In this document: one piece after another, positions 21,383-29,233 of the stretch
How the letters are laid out: each line of letters begins with the position of its first letter
Numbering within the stretch: position 1 is the first letter of the stretch
Assembly (NCBI RefSeq): GCF_002310495.1
Contig: NZ_CP023344.1
Location: forward strand, 3,551,501-3,615,500
Source of the DNA: Nibricoccus aquaticus
GTDB taxonomy: Bacteria > Verrucomicrobiota > Verrucomicrobiia > Opitutales > Opitutaceae
Direction of reading: 5' to 3'
Length of the DNA stretch: 64,000 nt
Made by a program: the position numbers and the translations under genes
Notes under the pieces: generated by a model
Seen by the model: the letters and a program-made list of their open reading frames with translations, nothing else
Databases searched by the model: none
What the model was told of the DNA's origin: nothing

Positions 21383-22969
21383 TCAGGCGTGAGCGTCGTG
21401 GTGGACGGGCTCGGGCGGGAGCGGAGTGACTCCAGAGAATTTGGCGCATGCGGCGAGCCAGGCGGCGACGATGAGGTAACTGGCGGCGATGGCGGGCGAG
21501 TGGCCGATGCCGATGCGTTCGCCGTGCATGAAGCCGAAGAAGGTCAGGGCTGCGCCGACGGCGGCGAAGGCGGAGGCGCGCCAGAGTTGTCGCTCGATGA
21601 TGAATACAGTCACGGCACTCAGGATGATGCCGCCGAGCACGGCGCCTCCGCCGAGGATTTCGAGTCCGTGGAAGAGTACGCCTTCGTTTTTCATTTTTTC
21701 TATGAGTTCGGGAGAGACACTGATGATGCCTGCGGCGGCGAGGGCTCCTTTGGCTTGGGCGAGCGCCCAGGCGGCGACGTGGGGAACGAGCGCGACGATG
21801 ATGGCTGGAGCGTGGCGGCGAGGCGTTTCTTGAAAGGCCTGCGAGCCGATCAACATGCCGATGTAGAGAAGGATGGGCAGGATCGCGACGACCGGAATCG
21901 CAGCGAGCATGACGGGGACGATGCCGAGCCAGCAGAGGGTGATGATCATCACGCCGGTGAAGAGTGAGTAGCCGACGCGGCCACCCATCGCTTTCCAGCC
22001 GGGGTGCCCGATGTACACGGCGAGGATGAACGGGTTGCCCATCAGGCAGCCGATCATGCTGATGACGCCGTCGGCCACGAGTACCTTGGTCGTGGGGAAA
22101 CTGTCGCCGGCGGCGGAGGCGCTTTCGACGTTGTCGATGGCTTCGACGAGGTCGTAGAGGCCGAAGGGAATCGCGGTGACGAGGAGTACGCCGAGGAATT
22201 CGAAGCCGGAGAAGACGTGGCCGAAGGCGGGCAGCGGAATGCTGAATCCGAAGTGCGTGAAGGACGCGGTGAGGCCGCTGAGAGAGAGTCCGCCGAAGTT
22301 GAAATCGAAGAGCGTGGAGCCCCATGCGATAAGCGTGCCGACGGCGATGGCGACGAGTCCGGCGGGGAGGCCGCGAAAATAGCGGACGCCGCCGAACCAG
22401 TTCACGAGCAGGACGACGAAGCAGAGGAGGCCGATGGCGGGCGTGAGGTACATCTGGAGCGCGGGGCGCATCGAGATGAAGGTGATCGAGACGCCGGCGA
22501 GTGTGCCGAGGAGCGCAGCGCGCGGGGTGACTTTGCGAACCCATTTGCCGACGAAACCGCCGAGGACGAGGACGATGCTTTGGATGAAACACCAGGTGAG
22601 GCCGGCTTCCCAGGCTTTGATGGGATCACCGGTCTGGAGTTTGATGGGGAGCATGACGACGAAGACGCCGATGAACATGTGGCCGACGCCGGGGCCAGAG
22701 GGGAGGGCGCAGACATCGGTGCGGCCAGTGCGTCGGGCGAGGTCGTAGGCGAGCCACGCGTAGTATCCGGTGGACAAGCACAGCATGAGGCCGACGGCGG
22801 GGAGGATGCGGCCGAAGACGAGGTCGTCGGGCATCTGCAGCACGAAGCGGAGGAGGCCGGTAAGCGTGAGGACGTTGACGAGGATGTTGGTGCCGAAGCC
22901 GAAGAAGGCGTTCCAGTCGCCTGGGACCCAGAGCCTGGGTTTGGCGAGGGTGGGAGTGATTGCGGTCAT
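21383..22969 (-). CDS. NCS2/AzgA-like nucleobase permease
   Basis: This 528-residue integral membrane protein has about 12-14 hydrophobic helices. It begins with LWVPGDWNAFFGFGTN and contains short helical-hairpin signatures of the NCS2 superfamily (ALPSGPGVGHMF, TAIPFGLYDLVEAIDNVESA). Members import purines, pyrimidines or related ureides with protons. It lies immediately downstream of a BiuH-like hydrolase and an AtzE-like amidase on the same strand, separated only by a dispersed repeat, so a ureide or nucleobase-like substrate is a reasonable inference. Confidence 0.82.
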   Translation of the reverse strand: MTAITPTLAKPRLWVPGDWNAFFGFGTNILVNVLTLTGLLRFVLQMPDDLVFGRILPAVGLMLCLSTGYYAWLAYDLARRTGRTDVCALPSGPGVGHMFIGVFVVMLPIKLQTGDPIKAWEAGLTWCFIQSIVLVLGGFVGKWVRKVTPRAALLGTLAGVSITFISMRPALQMYLTPAIGLLCFVVLLVNWFGGVRYFRGLPAGLVAIAVGTLIAWGSTLFDFNFGGLSLSGLTASFTHFGFSIPLPAFGHVFSGFEFLGVLLVTAIPFGLYDLVEAIDNVESASAAGDSFPTTKVLVADGVISMIGCLMGNPFILAVYIGHPGWKAMGGRVGYSLFTGVMIITLCWLGIVPVMLAAIPVVAILPILLYIGMLIGSQAFQETPRRHAPAIIVALVPHVAAWALAQAKGALAAAGIISVSPELIEKMKNEGVLFHGLEILGGGAVLGGIILSAVTVFIIERQLWRASAFAAVGAALTFFGFMHGERIGIGHSPAIAASYLIVAAWLAACAKFSGVTPLPPEPVHHDAHA

Positions 22970-23083: not shown

Positions 23084-23767
23084 TCAGGGGAGCGCGAAGA
23101 GGATTTTTTCGGAGGACGTGACCCAGCCGAAGATGCCGGTTTGGGCTTTGATCATGGCGAGGCCGGCGGCGTGGAAGTCGGGGAAGTAGGAGCCGACGCA
23201 GTCGGAGGGGACGAGACAGTCGTAGCCGCGGTCGTTGGCTTCGCGGACGGTGGTGTGGACGCAGACCTCAGTGGTGACGCCGGTGACGATGAGCTGGCGG
23301 ATGCCGCGGTTCTGGAGGATGGCGTGGAGATCGGTGGCCCAGAAGGCACCTTTACCGGGTTTGTCGATGATCGGTTCGCCGGAGATGGGCGCGAGTTCGG
23401 GGATGATGTCGTGGCCGGCTTCGCCGCGAACGAGGATGCGCCCCATGGGGCCGGCGTCGCCGATGGTGGTCGGGCCGCGGCCGCGGATTTTTTTGCTTTC
23501 GGGGAGATCGGCGAGATCGGGGCGGTGACCTTCGCGGGTGTGTAGGACGGTGAGACCGAGCGAGCGCCAGGCGGCGAGGAGGCGTTGATTGGGCGCGATG
23601 GTGCGGCGGAGTTGGGAGACGTCGTTGCCGAGGGCTTCGCCGAAGCCGCCGGGCTCGAGGAAGTCGCGCTGCATGTCGATGATGAGCAGAGCGCAGGTCG
23701 CGGGCGTGAAGGTGAACGCGTAGGGCTCGGCTTCGATGGACAGTGATGTTAGGCGGAGCGGTGTCAT
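23084..23767 (-). CDS. Isochorismatase-family amidohydrolase, biuret-hydrolase (BiuH/RutB)-like
   Basis: The 227-residue cysteine hydrolase has the triad D31 (IIDMQRDF), K136 (DKPGKGAF) and C169 (TTEVCVHT). The segment HTREGHRPDLADLP, the IIPELAP stretch and TTVREANDRGYDCL closely recall biuret and ureidoacrylate amidohydrolases as I know them. The predicted reaction is hydrolytic release of ammonia from a biuret- or ureide-like amide in the cytoplasm. The ATG at 23767 is 10 bases past the AtzE-like stop; sequence upstream in frame overlaps that gene and is not coding. It is the third gene of the minus-strand AtzHG-AtzE-BiuH set. Confidence 0.82.
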   Translation of the reverse strand: MTPLRLTSLSIEAEPYAFTFTPATCALLIIDMQRDFLEPGGFGEALGNDVSQLRRTIAPNQRLLAAWRSLGLTVLHTREGHRPDLADLPESKKIRGRGPTTIGDAGPMGRILVRGEAGHDIIPELAPISGEPIIDKPGKGAFWATDLHAILQNRGIRQLIVTGVTTEVCVHTTVREANDRGYDCLVPSDCVGSYFPDFHAAGLAMIKAQTGIFGWVTSSEKILFALP

Positions 23768-23777
23768 CGGGACGCGG

Positions 23778-25175
23778 TTACAAGGCGGCGACGCGGGCGG
23801 TGCAGACGCCGGATTTTTCGAGCTGACGGGCGACGCGGAGGAGGGTGGCTTCGGCCCAGGGAGCGCCGATGAGCTGGACGGCGATGGGCATTTCGCCGGG
23901 GCGGTGTATCGGAACGGCGACGACGGGGAGGCCGGCGAGGCTGATGGGTTGGGTGAAGAGGCCGAGGTTGGGGCGCACGGACATTTCAACGCCGTCGAGT
24001 GTCATCATCTGCTGGCCGAGGAAGGTGGCGGAGACGGGGGTCGCGGGAGCGAGGAGGACGTCGACGTTTTGGAAAACGGCGCGGACCTGATCGCGCCACC
24101 AGGCGCGGAAGCGCTGGGCGTGGGTGTACCACGCGGCGGGGAGCATCGCGCCAGCGGCGAGGCGGTCGCGCATGTTGGGATCGAAATCGGCGGCGCGGGT
24201 GCGGAGGCGTTCGAGGTGAAGTTGTCCGCCCTCGCAGGCGCTGATGGTGTAGCCAGCGGCGCGGGCGAGCGCGGGGTCGGGGAGTTCAGTGCGGGCCGTG
24301 GCACCCAAGGCGGAGGCGATGGTGGCGACGGCGGCGAGGGCTTGGGGCGAGGCGCTTTTTTCGAAGTACCCGCCGAGGGTGGCGATACGCACCGGGGGAG
24401 AGGGTGAGTCGAGCGCGGGCGAGGCGAAATCCGGGGCGCGGGTGGTGCAGGCGGCGTCGCGCGGGTCGAAGCCCTGCATGGCGTCGTAGGAGGCGGCGAG
24501 GTCGGCGACGGAGCGGGCGAAGGGGCCGATGTGATCGATGCTGTGTACAAACGGAAAGCTGCCGCCGCGACCGAGACGACCGTAGGTGGGCTTGAGGCCG
24601 AAGAGTCCGCAGAAGGAGGAGGGGACGCGGATGGAGCCGTTGGTATCGGTCCCGAGGGAAATGGGTACGAGGCCGGCGGCGACGGCGGCTCCGCTGCCGC
24701 CCGAAGAACCACCGGCGGAGCGGGCGAGATCGTGGGGATTACGGGTGGGGCCGTCGTGGACGTTTTCGGTGACGAAGTCGTAGGCGTATTCGCCCATGTT
24801 GAGCGCGCCGAGGCAGATGGCGCCGGCGGCTTTGAGGCGGGTGATGGCGGTGGCGTCGGAGGTCGCGGGCGGGTGTGAGCGGTTGATTTTCGAGCCCGCG
24901 ACCGTGACGACGCCTTCGAGGTCGAACAGGTTTTTGACGGCGTAGGGGACGCCGGTCAGGGGGCCCGCGGGTATGCCGCTGGAGAGAGCTTCATCGACGG
25001 CGGCGGCTTCGGCGAGGGCGCGCTCGGCGGTGACGGTCGTGAAGGCGTTGATACGGGCGTGGGTGTCGGTGATGCGGGTGAGCAGGGCCTCAGTTACGGC
25101 GCGCGCGGTGGTCTGGCGCGCGCGGATGGCGGCGGAGATTTCCAGTGCGGTAGCGGTGTGCGGGACGAAGGTCAC
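23778..25175 (-). CDS. AtzE-family amidohydrolase (amidase signature)
   Basis: This 465-residue GatA-like amidase has a complete Ser-cisSer-Lys triad: K81 (PYAVKNLFD), S157 (AGGSSGGSG) and S181 (TDTNGSIRVP). The TDTNGSIRVP variant is the form I associate with AtzE, the 1-carboxybiuret hydrolase subunit. AtzE needs the small partner AtzG, and an AtzG-like domain is supplied by the upstream fusion gene. Its GTG start overlaps that gene's stop (GTGA), a sign of tight translational coupling and complex formation. The physiological substrate may be a ureide rather than an s-triazine product. Confidence 0.88.
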   Translation of the reverse strand: MTFVPHTATALEISAAIRARQTTARAVTEALLTRITDTHARINAFTTVTAERALAEAAAVDEALSSGIPAGPLTGVPYAVKNLFDLEGVVTVAGSKINRSHPPATSDATAITRLKAAGAICLGALNMGEYAYDFVTENVHDGPTRNPHDLARSAGGSSGGSGAAVAAGLVPISLGTDTNGSIRVPSSFCGLFGLKPTYGRLGRGGSFPFVHSIDHIGPFARSVADLAASYDAMQGFDPRDAACTTRAPDFASPALDSPSPPVRIATLGGYFEKSASPQALAAVATIASALGATARTELPDPALARAAGYTISACEGGQLHLERLRTRAADFDPNMRDRLAAGAMLPAAWYTHAQRFRAWWRDQVRAVFQNVDVLLAPATPVSATFLGQQMMTLDGVEMSVRPNLGLFTQPISLAGLPVVAVPIHRPGEMPIAVQLIGAPWAEATLLRVARQLEKSGVCTARVAAL

Positions 25176-25738
25176 GGCGTGAAGACGTGGGCGGGTTCGA
25201 GGTCGTCGGGGAGCGCGAAAGCGAGGAGTGGCGCGGCGATGGCGGCGGTGCGGTCGAGGTTGAGCGCGATGCCCTCGCGTTGTGCTGCGGAGAGCGGGAG
25301 GTGGAGGGCGGCGGCCATCTGATCGATGTAGCCGGGCCAGGAGGATGCGGGCGGGGTGTTGGAGACGTGGGCGGAGGCGATGCGCCAGCCGGTGTCGGGG
25401 ACGCGGATCCAGACTTGGGTTTGACGGCCGTGGCGGAGCTGGCCGGCGAAGACGACGGAATATTCGTATTGGGTGACGGCGGTGTCGGTGCCGAAGGCTT
25501 GCACGGTGGTGCGGAGCGGGGTGCGGTCGCGGAAATTGATCACGCGGTTTTTGCGAAATTCAGCGATGGCCTCGGCGCCGTAGAGGTGCTCGTTGACGCC
25601 GAAGCGGATCGCATGGGGTGAATCCCAGAAGAAGCCGGTGAGGGCATCGACGTCGTTGCTGAGGAGCGCGCGTTCGTAGGCTTCGAATTGCGCGGTGACC
25701 TCGGCGATGACGGTGGGGTCGTTGAAAGGAAGGGGCAT
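25172..25738 (-). CDS. AtzH-like (DUF3225) / AtzG-like (DUF4089) fusion protein
   Basis: The 188-residue protein has two parts. Residues 1-130 form a SnoaL/NTF2-like DUF3225 domain (EVTAQFEAYERALLSNDVD, FWDSPHAIRFGVNE, ASAHVSNTP), the type of AtzH, a decarboxylating amidohydrolase of the cyanuric-acid pathway. Residues 136-188 match the small GatC-like AtzG/DUF4089 subunit (YIDQMAAALHLPLS, LDRTAAIAAPLLAF, EPAHVFTP), which stabilises AtzE. In Pseudomonas sp. ADP these are separate polypeptides; here they share one frame with no internal stop. It is the first gene of the set and its stop overlaps the AtzE-like start. Confidence 0.8.
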   Translation of the reverse strand: MPLPFNDPTVIAEVTAQFEAYERALLSNDVDALTGFFWDSPHAIRFGVNEHLYGAEAIAEFRKNRVINFRDRTPLRTTVQAFGTDTAVTQYEYSVVFAGQLRHGRQTQVWIRVPDTGWRIASAHVSNTPPASSWPGYIDQMAAALHLPLSAAQREGIALNLDRTAAIAAPLLAFALPDDLEPAHVFTP

Positions 25739-25885: not shown

Positions 25886-28336
25886 TTACCACTTGTAGGT
25901 GACGGTAAGTTCGGCGGTCGGGCCCTGGCTGGGGCTGATGAAGGTGTCCCAGAAGAGGAACTGCGGGGCGTACGACTTTTCGTCGAAGATGTTGTTGGCG
26001 TTGATGCGGAAGGACCACGGGCCGGTGTTGTAGAAGATGGCGGCGCGGTAGGTGGTGTACTCGGGGAGTTTGATCTGCTGGGCGTATCCGGAGTAGAAAG
26101 ACGAGACGTAGGTGCCTCCGAAGGAACCGCCCCAGCCCTTGGGAGAGGTATAGGTGGTGCCGAGGGAGAAGACCTTCTGGGGCGTGGGTGCCTCGATCGG
26201 CGTTTGCACACCGAGAACCTGGCCGGTGCTGACGAAGCGGCCGCCGTAAACGAGCGTGGGGTCGAGGCCGAGAGCGCCGGGCGGGACGCCTAGGAAAAAA
26301 GGCGGATTCTTGAGGAGCGTCTTCTGCCAGGTGGCGGCGGCGGTGAAGCTGAGCGTCTTCGTCGGCGCGAAGCGGGCTTCGAGTTCGGTGCCTTCGGACT
26401 CGTAGGTGTCGAAGGTGCCGGCCTGGGAGTTGAAGGCGGTTTTCTCCTGCTCGTAGTAGGCGAGGGTGGCGTAGAGGCGGTTTTTGAGGAGCGAGCCTTT
26501 GAGGCCGATCTCGGAGATTTCGGAATCTTGCAGCCAGGTGCCTTGGGCGAGGTTGAGGCGGTCGATCATGCCACCCTGGCCGAGTTCGAGGTAGCGAGAT
26601 TCGGCGTGAGTGACGTAGGTACTGAGGCCGGCGGGGAGCTTGTAGTTGACGCTGGCGTTGTAGGTGAAGGCGGAGTCGCTGGCGGAGACTTCCTGGAAGA
26701 CCGAGGCGAGGTCGGTGCCGTTGGTGGTGGCTTCGTAGCGATCCCAGCGACCGCTGAGGATGACGCCGAGTTTTTCGAAGAAGGTGGCGTCGATGAGGCC
26801 GAAGATACCGAAGTCGGAGAAATCGCCGGTCTGTCTCCAGTTGTAGGGTACGTTACCGGTGCCGGTGTGGGCGCCTTCGAAGCGGTCGTTGCCGGTGGCG
26901 CCGACGGAGATGTCGCGGCGGTCGAGGACCTGGTAACCGCGGCCGCGTGATTCGCGTTCGTCGCCGTCGGAGTAGCGGAAGGAGACGCCGAAGATTGTAT
27001 CGAGGACGGTGTGCTCGGAGGGCGTGAGCTTGAGGTTGGCGGTGGTCTTGTTCTCGAAAGCCATCGCGACGTAGTCGGCGGTGAAGCCGTAGCTCGAGTA
27101 CTTCGTGTGATTCATGGAGTCGTAGAACGACTGGTTCTTCACGTTGAAGTCGGACGTGAAGGTTTTGGTGATGTCGAAGTAGAGCGTGAGTGCGTCGGTT
27201 TGGGAGAAGTCACCGGGCTCCACCTGCACGGTGTTGTGGCCGATGCTGGTGTACTTGACGGTGGTGGGATCGAGGCGGAAGGCGGCCTGCTGGTTCGCGG
27301 TGAGCGCGCCGTAGGGGAACGGGTCGGCGAAGGCGAATTGCTCGAGCGAATACGCGCTAATTTCGGACGGGCTGAGGTAGCCGTTGCCGTTGGTGTCGAG
27401 ATTGAGCGCGGGGCGGCCGGAGAGGTAGCGGCCGCCGTTGGTATCGATCAGCTCCTGGGTGACGCGGTTCCAGCCGAGGGACTGGTTGAGGTCGGCCCAC
27501 TGGGCCATGACGCCGTATTCGAGGAGAACGGAGTCGGAGAGCTCGGTATCGACGGCCAGCTGGGCGAGGGTGCCCTTGTTGTAGATGTTGTTGTAGTAGT
27601 TTTCGGAGTCCTCGGTCTGGATGAAGCCGTAGGCGCCGGAGCGTTTGCCGAAGAGGGAGAAGGGCGTGCCGTATTCGACACTGGCGATTTTCTTGTCGTA
27701 GGTGCCGAGCGTGACAGAGGCGATGCCCTGGGGTTTCTCGATGAACTTGGCGGTTTTGCTCTTCGCGGTCTTGGGGATGAAGTTGAGGATGCCGCCGACT
27801 TTGCCGCCGCCGTAGACGGGCGGAGGCGGACCCTTGATGATCTCGACGAAGTCGGTCGAGGCGATGGGCGTGGGGAAGTTGCCGCGATTTTCGATGCGGC
27901 GGAAACCGCGGAAGAAGTTGTCGGCGCGCTCGCCGCGAACATCGAGGGCGCCGGGGACGCCGAAATAGTTTCCGGTGAAAGAGCCGGCGGTGACGGCGAC
28001 GAAATCGTTGACGGTGCGGATGCCGTAGAGATCGGTGAGGGAGCTTTCGATGACGGTGATCGAGCGGGGAGTGTCTTGCACGGCGCGATCGGTGCCGAAG
28101 ACGGTGCTGGTTGGTCGCGACGGGAGAACGCTGTAGAGGTCGAGTTCGCCGGCGTCGGTTTCGATGTCGGCGAGTTTCACGACCTCGTCGGAGGCGGCGG
28201 GCTGGGCCAGGAGCGCGACGGGGAGGAGGCTCATCGCGATGAGCAGGCGGCGGGCGGGAGAGGCGTGGCGAACGGCGGGTGATGTGCGCCGGGAGAGACT
28301 TGGGCAAAAACGAGCAGGCTGGTTGGTGTCGGTCAT
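25886..28336 (-). CDS. TonB-dependent outer-membrane receptor with an EF-hand-like loop
   Basis: This 816-residue receptor has a signal peptide with a long n-region (hydrophobic core MSLLPVALLAQPAA). A plug domain follows (QDTPRSITVIESSLTDLYG; DFVEIIKGPPPPVYGGGKVGG), then a 22-strand-type barrel ending in the aromatic TVTYKW terminus. It imports a bound ligand with TonB energy. An unusual extracellular-loop segment encoded at 27362-27397 reads DTNGNGYLSPSE, a textbook EF-hand calcium loop. It lies upstream of the AtzHG-AtzE-BiuH-permease genes on the same strand and divergent from a GntR regulator, so it probably admits the substrate of that pathway. Confidence 0.92.
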   Translation of the reverse strand: MTDTNQPARFCPSLSRRTSPAVRHASPARRLLIAMSLLPVALLAQPAASDEVVKLADIETDAGELDLYSVLPSRPTSTVFGTDRAVQDTPRSITVIESSLTDLYGIRTVNDFVAVTAGSFTGNYFGVPGALDVRGERADNFFRGFRRIENRGNFPTPIASTDFVEIIKGPPPPVYGGGKVGGILNFIPKTAKSKTAKFIEKPQGIASVTLGTYDKKIASVEYGTPFSLFGKRSGAYGFIQTEDSENYYNNIYNKGTLAQLAVDTELSDSVLLEYGVMAQWADLNQSLGWNRVTQELIDTNGGRYLSGRPALNLDTNGNGYLSPSEISAYSLEQFAFADPFPYGALTANQQAAFRLDPTTVKYTSIGHNTVQVEPGDFSQTDALTLYFDITKTFTSDFNVKNQSFYDSMNHTKYSSYGFTADYVAMAFENKTTANLKLTPSEHTVLDTIFGVSFRYSDGDERESRGRGYQVLDRRDISVGATGNDRFEGAHTGTGNVPYNWRQTGDFSDFGIFGLIDATFFEKLGVILSGRWDRYEATTNGTDLASVFQEVSASDSAFTYNASVNYKLPAGLSTYVTHAESRYLELGQGGMIDRLNLAQGTWLQDSEISEIGLKGSLLKNRLYATLAYYEQEKTAFNSQAGTFDTYESEGTELEARFAPTKTLSFTAAATWQKTLLKNPPFFLGVPPGALGLDPTLVYGGRFVSTGQVLGVQTPIEAPTPQKVFSLGTTYTSPKGWGGSFGGTYVSSFYSGYAQQIKLPEYTTYRAAIFYNTGPWSFRINANNIFDEKSYAPQFLFWDTFISPSQGPTAELTVTYKW

Positions 28337-28378
28337 GGGAAAAGGGAAGGCGGGCGCAAAAAGCACTGCGTATGCCAT

Positions 28379-28390: not shown

Positions 28391-28468
28391 TAAGTATTCT
28401 CATGGTTTGGAGCGGGCGGAGGTTCGGCGTTGCGCTGGAGAAATCGGTTCGCAACGTCGCGAGCGCAC

Positions 28469-29233
28469 ATGGCACGCACGCGCAAAAGTCCCGCATCGAA
28501 AGCACCGGTTGGCGCAGCTTCAGCGAGTACGGTGGCGGGCGGCGAGGCGGCGGGATCGAATCAGCTGGGGCCGCAGATCCTGCGTGGATTGAGAGAACGG
28601 ATACTCGGGTGGCATTATCCGCCGGGGCATCACCTCGGAGAGAAGACGTTGTGCGAGGAGTTTTCGGCGAGCCGGATTCCGGTGCGCGAGGCATTGCGGG
28701 CGCTGGCGGAGCAGGGACTCGTGGACCAAGTGCCGAACATGGGCTGCTATGTGAAGCAGCCGGATGCGGAGGCGACGCACCATCTGTACGATCTGCGGCT
28801 GGCGCTGGAGTTATTTGTGGTGGAGCGGCTGGCGCGGTCCGGCGTGGATGCGGAGGTGCTGGCGAAAGAGCGCGCGTTTTGGGAGCCGCTGATGGCGATC
28901 AAGGCCAGCGCGAAGTTCGAGACGGCGGAGCTGGTGCGGGCGGACGAGAATTTTCACCTGAACCTGGCGAAGGCGGTGGGGAATCCGTTTCTCACGGAGT
29001 CGCTCGAGGACATCAACGAGCGGCTGCATTTTGTGCGCATGGCGGTGATCACGAGCGCGCATCGCGTGCAAACGACGGCGGGGGAGCACTTGAAAGTTTT
29101 AGAGGCGATCGAGGCGAAGGATGCGGAGGGAGCGCGGCGTTATCTGCGGCAGAATCTGCTGTCGGCGCGCAACAAGGTGGAAATGGCGATCGCGCAGGCG
29201 CTGACGGCGGCGCATACGAAGCGGAAGCGATGA
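28469..29233 (+). CDS. GntR-family transcriptional regulator, FCD (FadR-like) subfamily
   Basis: The 254-residue protein has a basic disordered N-terminal 40 residues, then a winged-helix GntR domain (about 45-115: ILRGLRERILGWHYPPG, FSASRIPVREALRALAEQGLV). An all-helical FCD effector domain follows (about 125-235) with the usual metal/ligand residues (DLRLALE, DENFHLNL, EHLKVLEAI). It is divergent from the TonB receptor and separated from it by a perfect palindrome, so it probably represses the receptor and amidohydrolase genes until a small acid or ureide binds. ATG 28469 is chosen; sequence upstream lacks family character. Confidence 0.9.
   Translation: MARTRKSPASKAPVGAASASTVAGGEAAGSNQLGPQILRGLRERILGWHYPPGHHLGEKTLCEEFSASRIPVREALRALAEQGLVDQVPNMGCYVKQPDAEATHHLYDLRLALELFVVERLARSGVDAEVLAKERAFWEPLMAIKASAKFETAELVRADENFHLNLAKAVGNPFLTESLEDINERLHFVRMAVITSAHRVQTTAGEHLKVLEAIEAKDAEGARRYLRQNLLSARNKVEMAIAQALTAAHTKRKR

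Follow-up and report, generated by a model that had tools for sequence, protein, structure and literature searches.

In the 64,000-nucleotide stretch of Nibricoccus aquaticus DNA analysed here (the window), a single gene on the minus strand encodes an AtzH-like and an AtzG-like domain in one polypeptide, directly ahead of a gene for an AtzE-family amidase. The fusion is conserved within the family Opitutaceae and is accompanied by a gene for a TrtA-like hydrolase. We consider it likely that the cluster is a triuret-degradation operon, in which TrtA would act first, followed by AtzE with its partner AtzG and then by AtzH, AtzG and AtzH being parts of one chain, and AtzF would act last. Such a cluster most likely lets the bacteria feed on the urea-like compound triuret. 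The features of the cluster are the following, with positions counted in the window.

21383..22969, minus strand: polytopic membrane protein with about 11 hydrophobic segments, without a Pfam or NCBIfam family
23084..23767, minus strand: TrtA-like isochorismatase-fold hydrolase with 227 aa when read from its ATG (23767), assigned by PDB match and residues
23778..25175, minus strand: AtzE-family amidase, 465 aa, 54.4% identity to AtzE of Pseudomonas sp. ADP
25172..25738, minus strand: AtzH::AtzG fusion gene, 188 aa, ATG start at the 25738 end, TGA stop
25172..25175, minus strand: GTGA in the sequence, fusion stop shared with the AtzE start
25181..25330, minus strand: AtzG-like domain PF13318, residues 137-186, Pfam profile search
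25331..25357, minus strand: linker, residues 128-136, its length differing among relatives
25358..25726, minus strand: AtzH-like domain PF11533, residues 5-127, Pfam profile search
25886..28378, minus strand: TonB-dependent outer-membrane receptor (PF07715)
28430..29233, plus strand: divergent GntR/FCD regulator (Pfam)

The first-pass annotation of this DNA had described one 188-codon frame joining a DUF3225 domain (residues 1-130) to a DUF4089/AtzG domain (residues 136-188), and the description holds. Both Pfam matches exceed their curated cut-offs, PF11533 at residues 5-127 with E 9.8e-42 (142.1 bits against 27) and PF13318 at residues 137-186 with E 1e-14 (55.1 bits against 24); the latter lies in the very segment, residues 136-188, on which the annotation had staked its claim. 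The GTGA overlap that it reported with the AtzE-like frame (25175-23778) is present. A four-base NTGA shared by stop and next start is found in all 21 intact fusion genes, a set made up of the window, 19 relatives from its family and the acidobacterial contig L005, with L004 left out. Both Pfam families are matched by each of these 21 fusions (PF13318 at E 0.001). A chance match of the AtzG part was rejected on these grounds, the curated cut-off being exceeded in the window and the outcome being the same in the other 20 intact fusions. A missed stop between the domains had been named as a possible flaw; this or an assembly error is very unlikely, since 20 further intact fusions, from 19 of 20 family relatives and one acidobacterial MAG, carry both domains in one frame. 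Another possibility considered was that an internal start allows the AtzG half to be translated on its own. In the window fusion codon 141, which lies inside the AtzG domain, is an ATG. In a scan from about 10 codons before to 25 codons after the end of the AtzH domain, six of the 21 intact genes (L002, L031, L034, L036, L038 and L044) contain no in-frame ATG, GTG or TTG, so that these at least are most simply read as encoding one polypeptide; separate translation was rejected for those six only.

A taxonomic survey, as proposed in the earlier annotation, returned 20 intact fusions in the Opitutaceae, the window's included, one in an acidobacterial MAG and none among 29 AtzG-bearing Proteobacteria genomes. 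The source genome, assembled as one contig of 4.73 Mb, has one AtzG match. AtzG is present in 21 of 252 genomes of the family, that of the window among them. In 19 of the other 20 an intact frame of 183-193 aa spans both domains; in the twentieth (L004/G242) the frame runs from AtzH into AtzG, its end being spoiled by unread bases. The fusion on the acidobacterial contig has 179 aa. In samples taken by phylum the scoring covered no more than 17 to 19 first-look candidates in each genome, and misses are therefore possible in the counts that follow. AtzG above the cut-off was found in three of 387 genomes from the window's phylum, all three of the same family, and a fourth, weak match in another family of that phylum is adjoined by neither AtzE nor AtzH. 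The phylum of the acidobacterial MAG yielded AtzG in one of 347 genomes, namely that MAG itself, and the Proteobacteria in 29 of 349 (28 above the cut-off). An AtzH match is located within about 8 kb of AtzG in 26 of these 29 proteobacterial genomes, beyond AtzE in 25 and on the other strand in one (L173); over the same distance, none of the 29 has AtzH ahead of AtzG in AtzG's frame. Among plasmids, 56 records match the fusion, and none of the four examined has AtzH ahead and fused to AtzG. The pADP-1, Klebsiella and Paraburkholderia plasmids carry AtzG/HpxX, AtzE and AtzH/HpxZ as separate genes, the Paraburkholderia AtzG being annotated as a hypothetical protein and aligned here with the AtzG part of the fusion. 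Three of the 56 records match over 83% of the fusion, and in one of them, H1, the match extends beyond the stop of a separate hpxZ gene. By these sequence searches the fusion looks restricted in its distribution. No AtzH-AtzG fusion is described in the literature that we searched on AtzEG/AtzH, triuret and Hpx proteins, a search which many subscription papers fall outside; within this scope the annotators' remark that they knew of no such fusion is borne out.

Regarding the origin of the fusion, AtzE trees of the family were built from the window, 14 relatives and L005. L043, in which AtzE is broken, was dropped, and L004, L030, L032, L035 and L036 were not part of these trees. All 15 family rows fall into one clade (100/100), and the trees do not settle the placement of L005. 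A constraint holding all 16 fusion-linked AtzE together was not rejected (p-AU 0.215, L177 and L178 dropped). We considered whether the Opitutaceae fusions and the acidobacterial one arose only once; the AtzE tree shows neither one origin nor two.

The AtzE-family amidase passes both AtzE-family models, TIGR02715 with 677.2 bits (cut-off 425.75) and NF006631 with 694.5 bits (cut-off 461). K81, S158 and S181 are candidates for its Lys/Ser/Ser triad. Its best PDB match is chain A of 6c62 (500 bits), which bears the depositors' label biuret hydrolase; chain C of the same entry is AtzG. In the characterised system AtzG is the non-catalytic, obligate heterotetramer partner of AtzE, which is insoluble without it (PMC6219798), and AtzEG hydrolyses carboxybiuret, the product of TrtA (PMC7948467). 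The link to carboxybiuret chemistry drawn at first pass is supported, and the tethering of an AtzH-like activity to AtzE proposed there follows if the AtzG part acts as described in PMC6219798. Given this dependence of AtzE on AtzG, each AtzE would carry one AtzH, provided that the AtzG part of the fusion keeps its role. AtzEG reportedly forms a heterotetramer and AtzH a dimer, so that one larger assembly of AtzE and the fusion is likely. We tentatively go one step further and suggest, as a serious possibility, that the fusion is a covalent channelling device, in which an AtzH site would sit beside each AtzE, AtzH dimers would bridge AtzE-AtzG units and the unstable dicarboxyurea would be handed over inside the complex, perhaps with a kinetic gain. 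If this is true, a natural protein design would be evidence that AtzH acts on the product of AtzE.

This matters for AtzH itself. AtzH is proposed to convert 1,3-dicarboxyurea to allophanate and thereby to avoid a dead end (PMC6219798), so that the first-pass wording, by which AtzH removes a dead-end product, needs correction. The reaction was inferred from coupled assays, because neither its substrate nor its product is stable in water (PMC6219798). The conserved link between AtzH and the obligate AtzE subunit gives independent support that AtzE and AtzH act in sequence, and it offers a single protein for testing the claim. According to PMC6219798, Tyr22 and Arg46 of AtzH are needed for catalysis; Tyr22 variants behave like no AtzH, and Arg46 and Arg63Lys variants remain below wild type. 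The equivalents of Tyr22, Arg46, Arg63, Gln106 and Gln108 in the window are Y21, R45, R62, Q106 and Q108, and in the alignment all five positions are invariant in the 21 intact fusions. As that paper reports a loss of rate for the Tyr22, Arg46 and Arg63Lys variants only and none for Gln variants, the lack of variation at the two Gln does not test catalysis. The equivalent of Arg73 is nearly invariant among the 21 fusions; those of Arg66 and Arg96 are not kept. These assignments use an inferred three-residue offset between paper and gene numbering, which fits all nine named pocket residues in ADP AtzH.

The AlphaFold model of the fusion has a mean pLDDT of 86.1, and in a fold search its first domain matches AtzH 6d63 with Z 21.3 and 1.1 A over 123 residues; the search tested residues 2-131 well, and the AtzG part is absent from its rows. 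The model also matches CaMKII hub domains, which are multimerising hubs. This match and the two pocket arginines that are not kept would agree with an AtzH half that is a mere dimerising scaffold, stabilising AtzE-AtzG without a catalytic part, but a bare scaffold is not expected to keep the equivalents of Tyr22, Arg46 and Arg63, the residues whose variants lower the rate, invariant in 21 of 21 fusions. We regard a scaffold as quite unlikely; the AtzH half is probably active, judged by its residues. Stand-alone AtzH-like genes are found in L006 and in the genomes G015, G083, G128 and G187, all without an AtzG match. The one in L006 has an ABC-type transport system and a 2-oxoglutarate dehydrogenase-like gene among its neighbours, hence AtzH may have another role there.

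The gene after AtzE points to the substrate of the cluster. Its best PDB match is 6xix (276.8 bits), which is TrtA (PMC7948467); biuret hydrolases score 254.8 and 239.0 bits. Residues distinguishing TrtA from BiuH are discussed by Tassoulas et al. (PMC7948467), and we took fifteen positions from that paper. The residues at these positions are DFFNEKKAVTECYQI in the window as well as in 15 of the 16 relatives scored, TrtA of L030 and L032 being left out as contig-end pieces; in the sixteenth relative, L043, the frame is interrupted by a stop and position 24 is changed. BiuH-type paralogues read DFYYEKKSITDCTQV at the same positions. The catalytic Asp24, Lys129 and Cys162 of TrtA are present in the window hydrolase, which has F, N, A, E, Y and I at positions 35, 41, 134, 160, 187 and 205, where the BiuH-type paralogues have Y, Y, S, D, T and V. 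The best NCBIfam model is that of the BiuH biuret hydrolase, NF050097, with 278.9 bits and under its cut-off of 370; no TrtA model is among the matches of this search. By its PDB match the enzyme is closest to the triuret hydrolase TrtA, and its residues are those of TrtA and not of biuret hydrolase. Of the 21 AtzG-bearing family genomes, 19 have TrtA at an identity of at least 70%. In the two fusion genomes without it, the contig ends inside AtzE (G246) or a permease lies directly after AtzE (G174). The acidobacterial fusion contig L005 has no TrtA match, and a Bmp-type binding protein comes next after AtzE.

In the pathway that we propose, TrtA would convert triuret to carboxybiuret, which AtzE, bound to the fusion through the AtzG half, would deaminate to 1,3-dicarboxyurea. 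The AtzH half, on the same complex, would turn dicarboxyurea into allophanate before it decays to urea, and the allophanate hydrolase AtzF would release ammonia and CO2. AtzF is encoded in the window's genome, 0.36 Mb from the cluster, as a protein of 590 aa with Amidase and AH_C domains. An AtzF "multienzyme complex" is named in the title of a cited paper. Near AtzF lies a biotin-dependent carboxylase with the make-up of a urea carboxylase, a name that is our reading. Eight relatives (L002, L003, L031, L037, L038, L040, L043 and L044) have a second, weaker amidase match beyond the permease; the six that were scored all pass the cut-off for allophanate hydrolase, that of L037 being on the opposite strand.

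The first-pass annotation had placed the genes in the s-triazine pathway. The AtzH, AtzG and AtzE families and carboxybiuret remain from this frame; the TrtA-like entry gene does not belong to it and makes triuret the most likely substrate. The atzDGEHF operon on pADP-1 of Pseudomonas sp. ADP shares AtzG, AtzE, AtzH and AtzF with the proposed pathway, as well as the steps from carboxybiuret via dicarboxyurea to allophanate. In pADP-1, however, atzG and atzH are separate genes flanking atzE, whereas in the window a single protein encoded ahead of atzE contains both. Entry is through AtzD in pADP-1 and through a TrtA-like enzyme in the window. The shared set of AtzG, AtzE, AtzH and AtzF could also mean that the cluster breaks down cyanuric acid, an s-triazine, like the operon of Pseudomonas sp. 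ADP, but the single-contig genome gave no AtzD/TrzD (PF09663) match and a TrtA-like gene is present instead. Control genomes were equally silent for PF09663, so the missing match is no proof of absence; with the TrtA-like gene taken into account, cyanuric acid is a highly improbable substrate.

Triuret degradation is known from the trtA-(trtB)-biuH-atzF pathway of Herbaspirillum, Rhizobium and nitrifiers, which according to PMC7948467 and PMC12625717 shares TrtA entry and AtzF exit with the pathway proposed here. It differs in the middle, where carboxybiuret is decarboxylated to biuret and biuret is cut by BiuH, while the window has AtzE and the fusion instead. The BiuH variant occurs in four genomes of the window's own family (G209, G211, G214 and G219), in which TrtA is matched at 61-80% identity and AtzG is not matched. 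The first enzyme of each has the TrtA residues and is accompanied by a second, BiuH-type hydrolase; the gene order in G214 is TrtA, membrane protein, BiuH-type enzyme, AtzF. The search of the window's genome yielded no further TrtA/BiuH relative. Among the matches listed, no fusion genome has a further hydrolase at 50% identity or more, with the exception of G117, whose two TrtA pieces (71% and 78%) lie on different contigs, overlap partly and are perhaps one gene split by assembly. Because each of the four TrtA genomes without AtzG has a BiuH-type enzyme, the AtzE/fusion and BiuH routes look alternative within the family, which would thus hold two apparently interchangeable solutions for carboxybiuret. 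This suggests a second way to use triuret in the Opitutaceae, beside the TrtB/BiuH route. The routes are not exclusive in Proteobacteria, where L172, L175 and L176 have both TrtA and a BiuH-type enzyme near AtzE. TrtA residues are found near unfused AtzG/AtzE in five of the 29 AtzG-bearing proteobacterial genomes. L176 (G1047) has TrtA, AtzH, AtzE, AtzF, AtzD and a BiuH-type enzyme inside about 8 kb. On the Paraburkholderia plasmid L080 an isochorismatase-fold gene stands ahead of separate AtzG-like, AtzE and AtzH genes; most TrtA residues are missing from it, so AtzE clusters may serve other substrates too.

One such substrate to be weighed for the window is oxalurate. The hpxX-hpxY-hpxZ genes of Klebsiella encode the same three protein families, although as three separate genes and with AtzE in a separate clade. 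By analogy the fusion would be HpxZ-HpxX, the amidase HpxY and the substrate oxalurate from purine breakdown. HpxZ and HpxX are indeed the NCBIfam names for the two halves, but both scores are under the equivalog cut-offs (127.9 against 135 bits for the AtzH half, 44.8 against 70 bits for the AtzG half). The window AtzE and the AtzE-family protein encoded beside hpxX in Klebsiella share 51.0% identity, near the 54.4% shared with ADP AtzE; in the tree that contains Klebsiella (six family rows and L005, without L177 and L178), however, the Klebsiella protein groups with nine sampled proteobacterial rows in a ten-row clade apart from that of the window. No TrtA or AtzD match lies within about 8 kb in any of those nine rows. 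In the window, and likewise in 18 of the 20 relatives (two of them contig-end pieces), AtzE is followed by a TrtA match. ADP AtzE, the carboxybiuret hydrolase of the papers, is itself on the Klebsiella side of the tree, which alone is therefore no arbiter of substrate. We consider oxalurate unlikely and this reading weaker than that of triuret. On the Azospirillum plasmid L081, hpxZ is located after an amidase gene and no AtzG is annotated, the gene table being incomplete; xanthine dehydrogenase-type genes and a DUF1116 gene are nearby.

The proposed triuret cluster further includes an outer-membrane receptor and an unclassified membrane protein. Around the fusion in the 20 relatives, AtzE is found in 20, the divergent GntR regulator and the TonB-dependent receptor in 19 each, TrtA in 18 and the membrane protein in 17; several of these stretches stop at contig ends, and two of the 18 TrtA are contig-end pieces. 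A profile search with an alignment of the membrane protein against PDB gave nothing at E 1. A close form (at least 68% identity) is present in nine of 150 family genomes searched, all of them with the fusion or TrtA, and the protein adjoins TrtA in the BiuH-type cluster of G214 and in the proteobacterium L173. From its sequence and position the membrane protein encoded at 21383-22969 is a candidate, and probable, ureide importer. The TonB-dependent receptor is present in the clusters of 19 of 20 relatives even though triuret is a small molecule, which would mean that triuret is scavenged where it is scarce or else that what is imported is larger than triuret or complexed. In L043 (G003) the frames of receptor, AtzE, TrtA and permease are all broken, by assembly error or by decay, and the fusion gene is intact.
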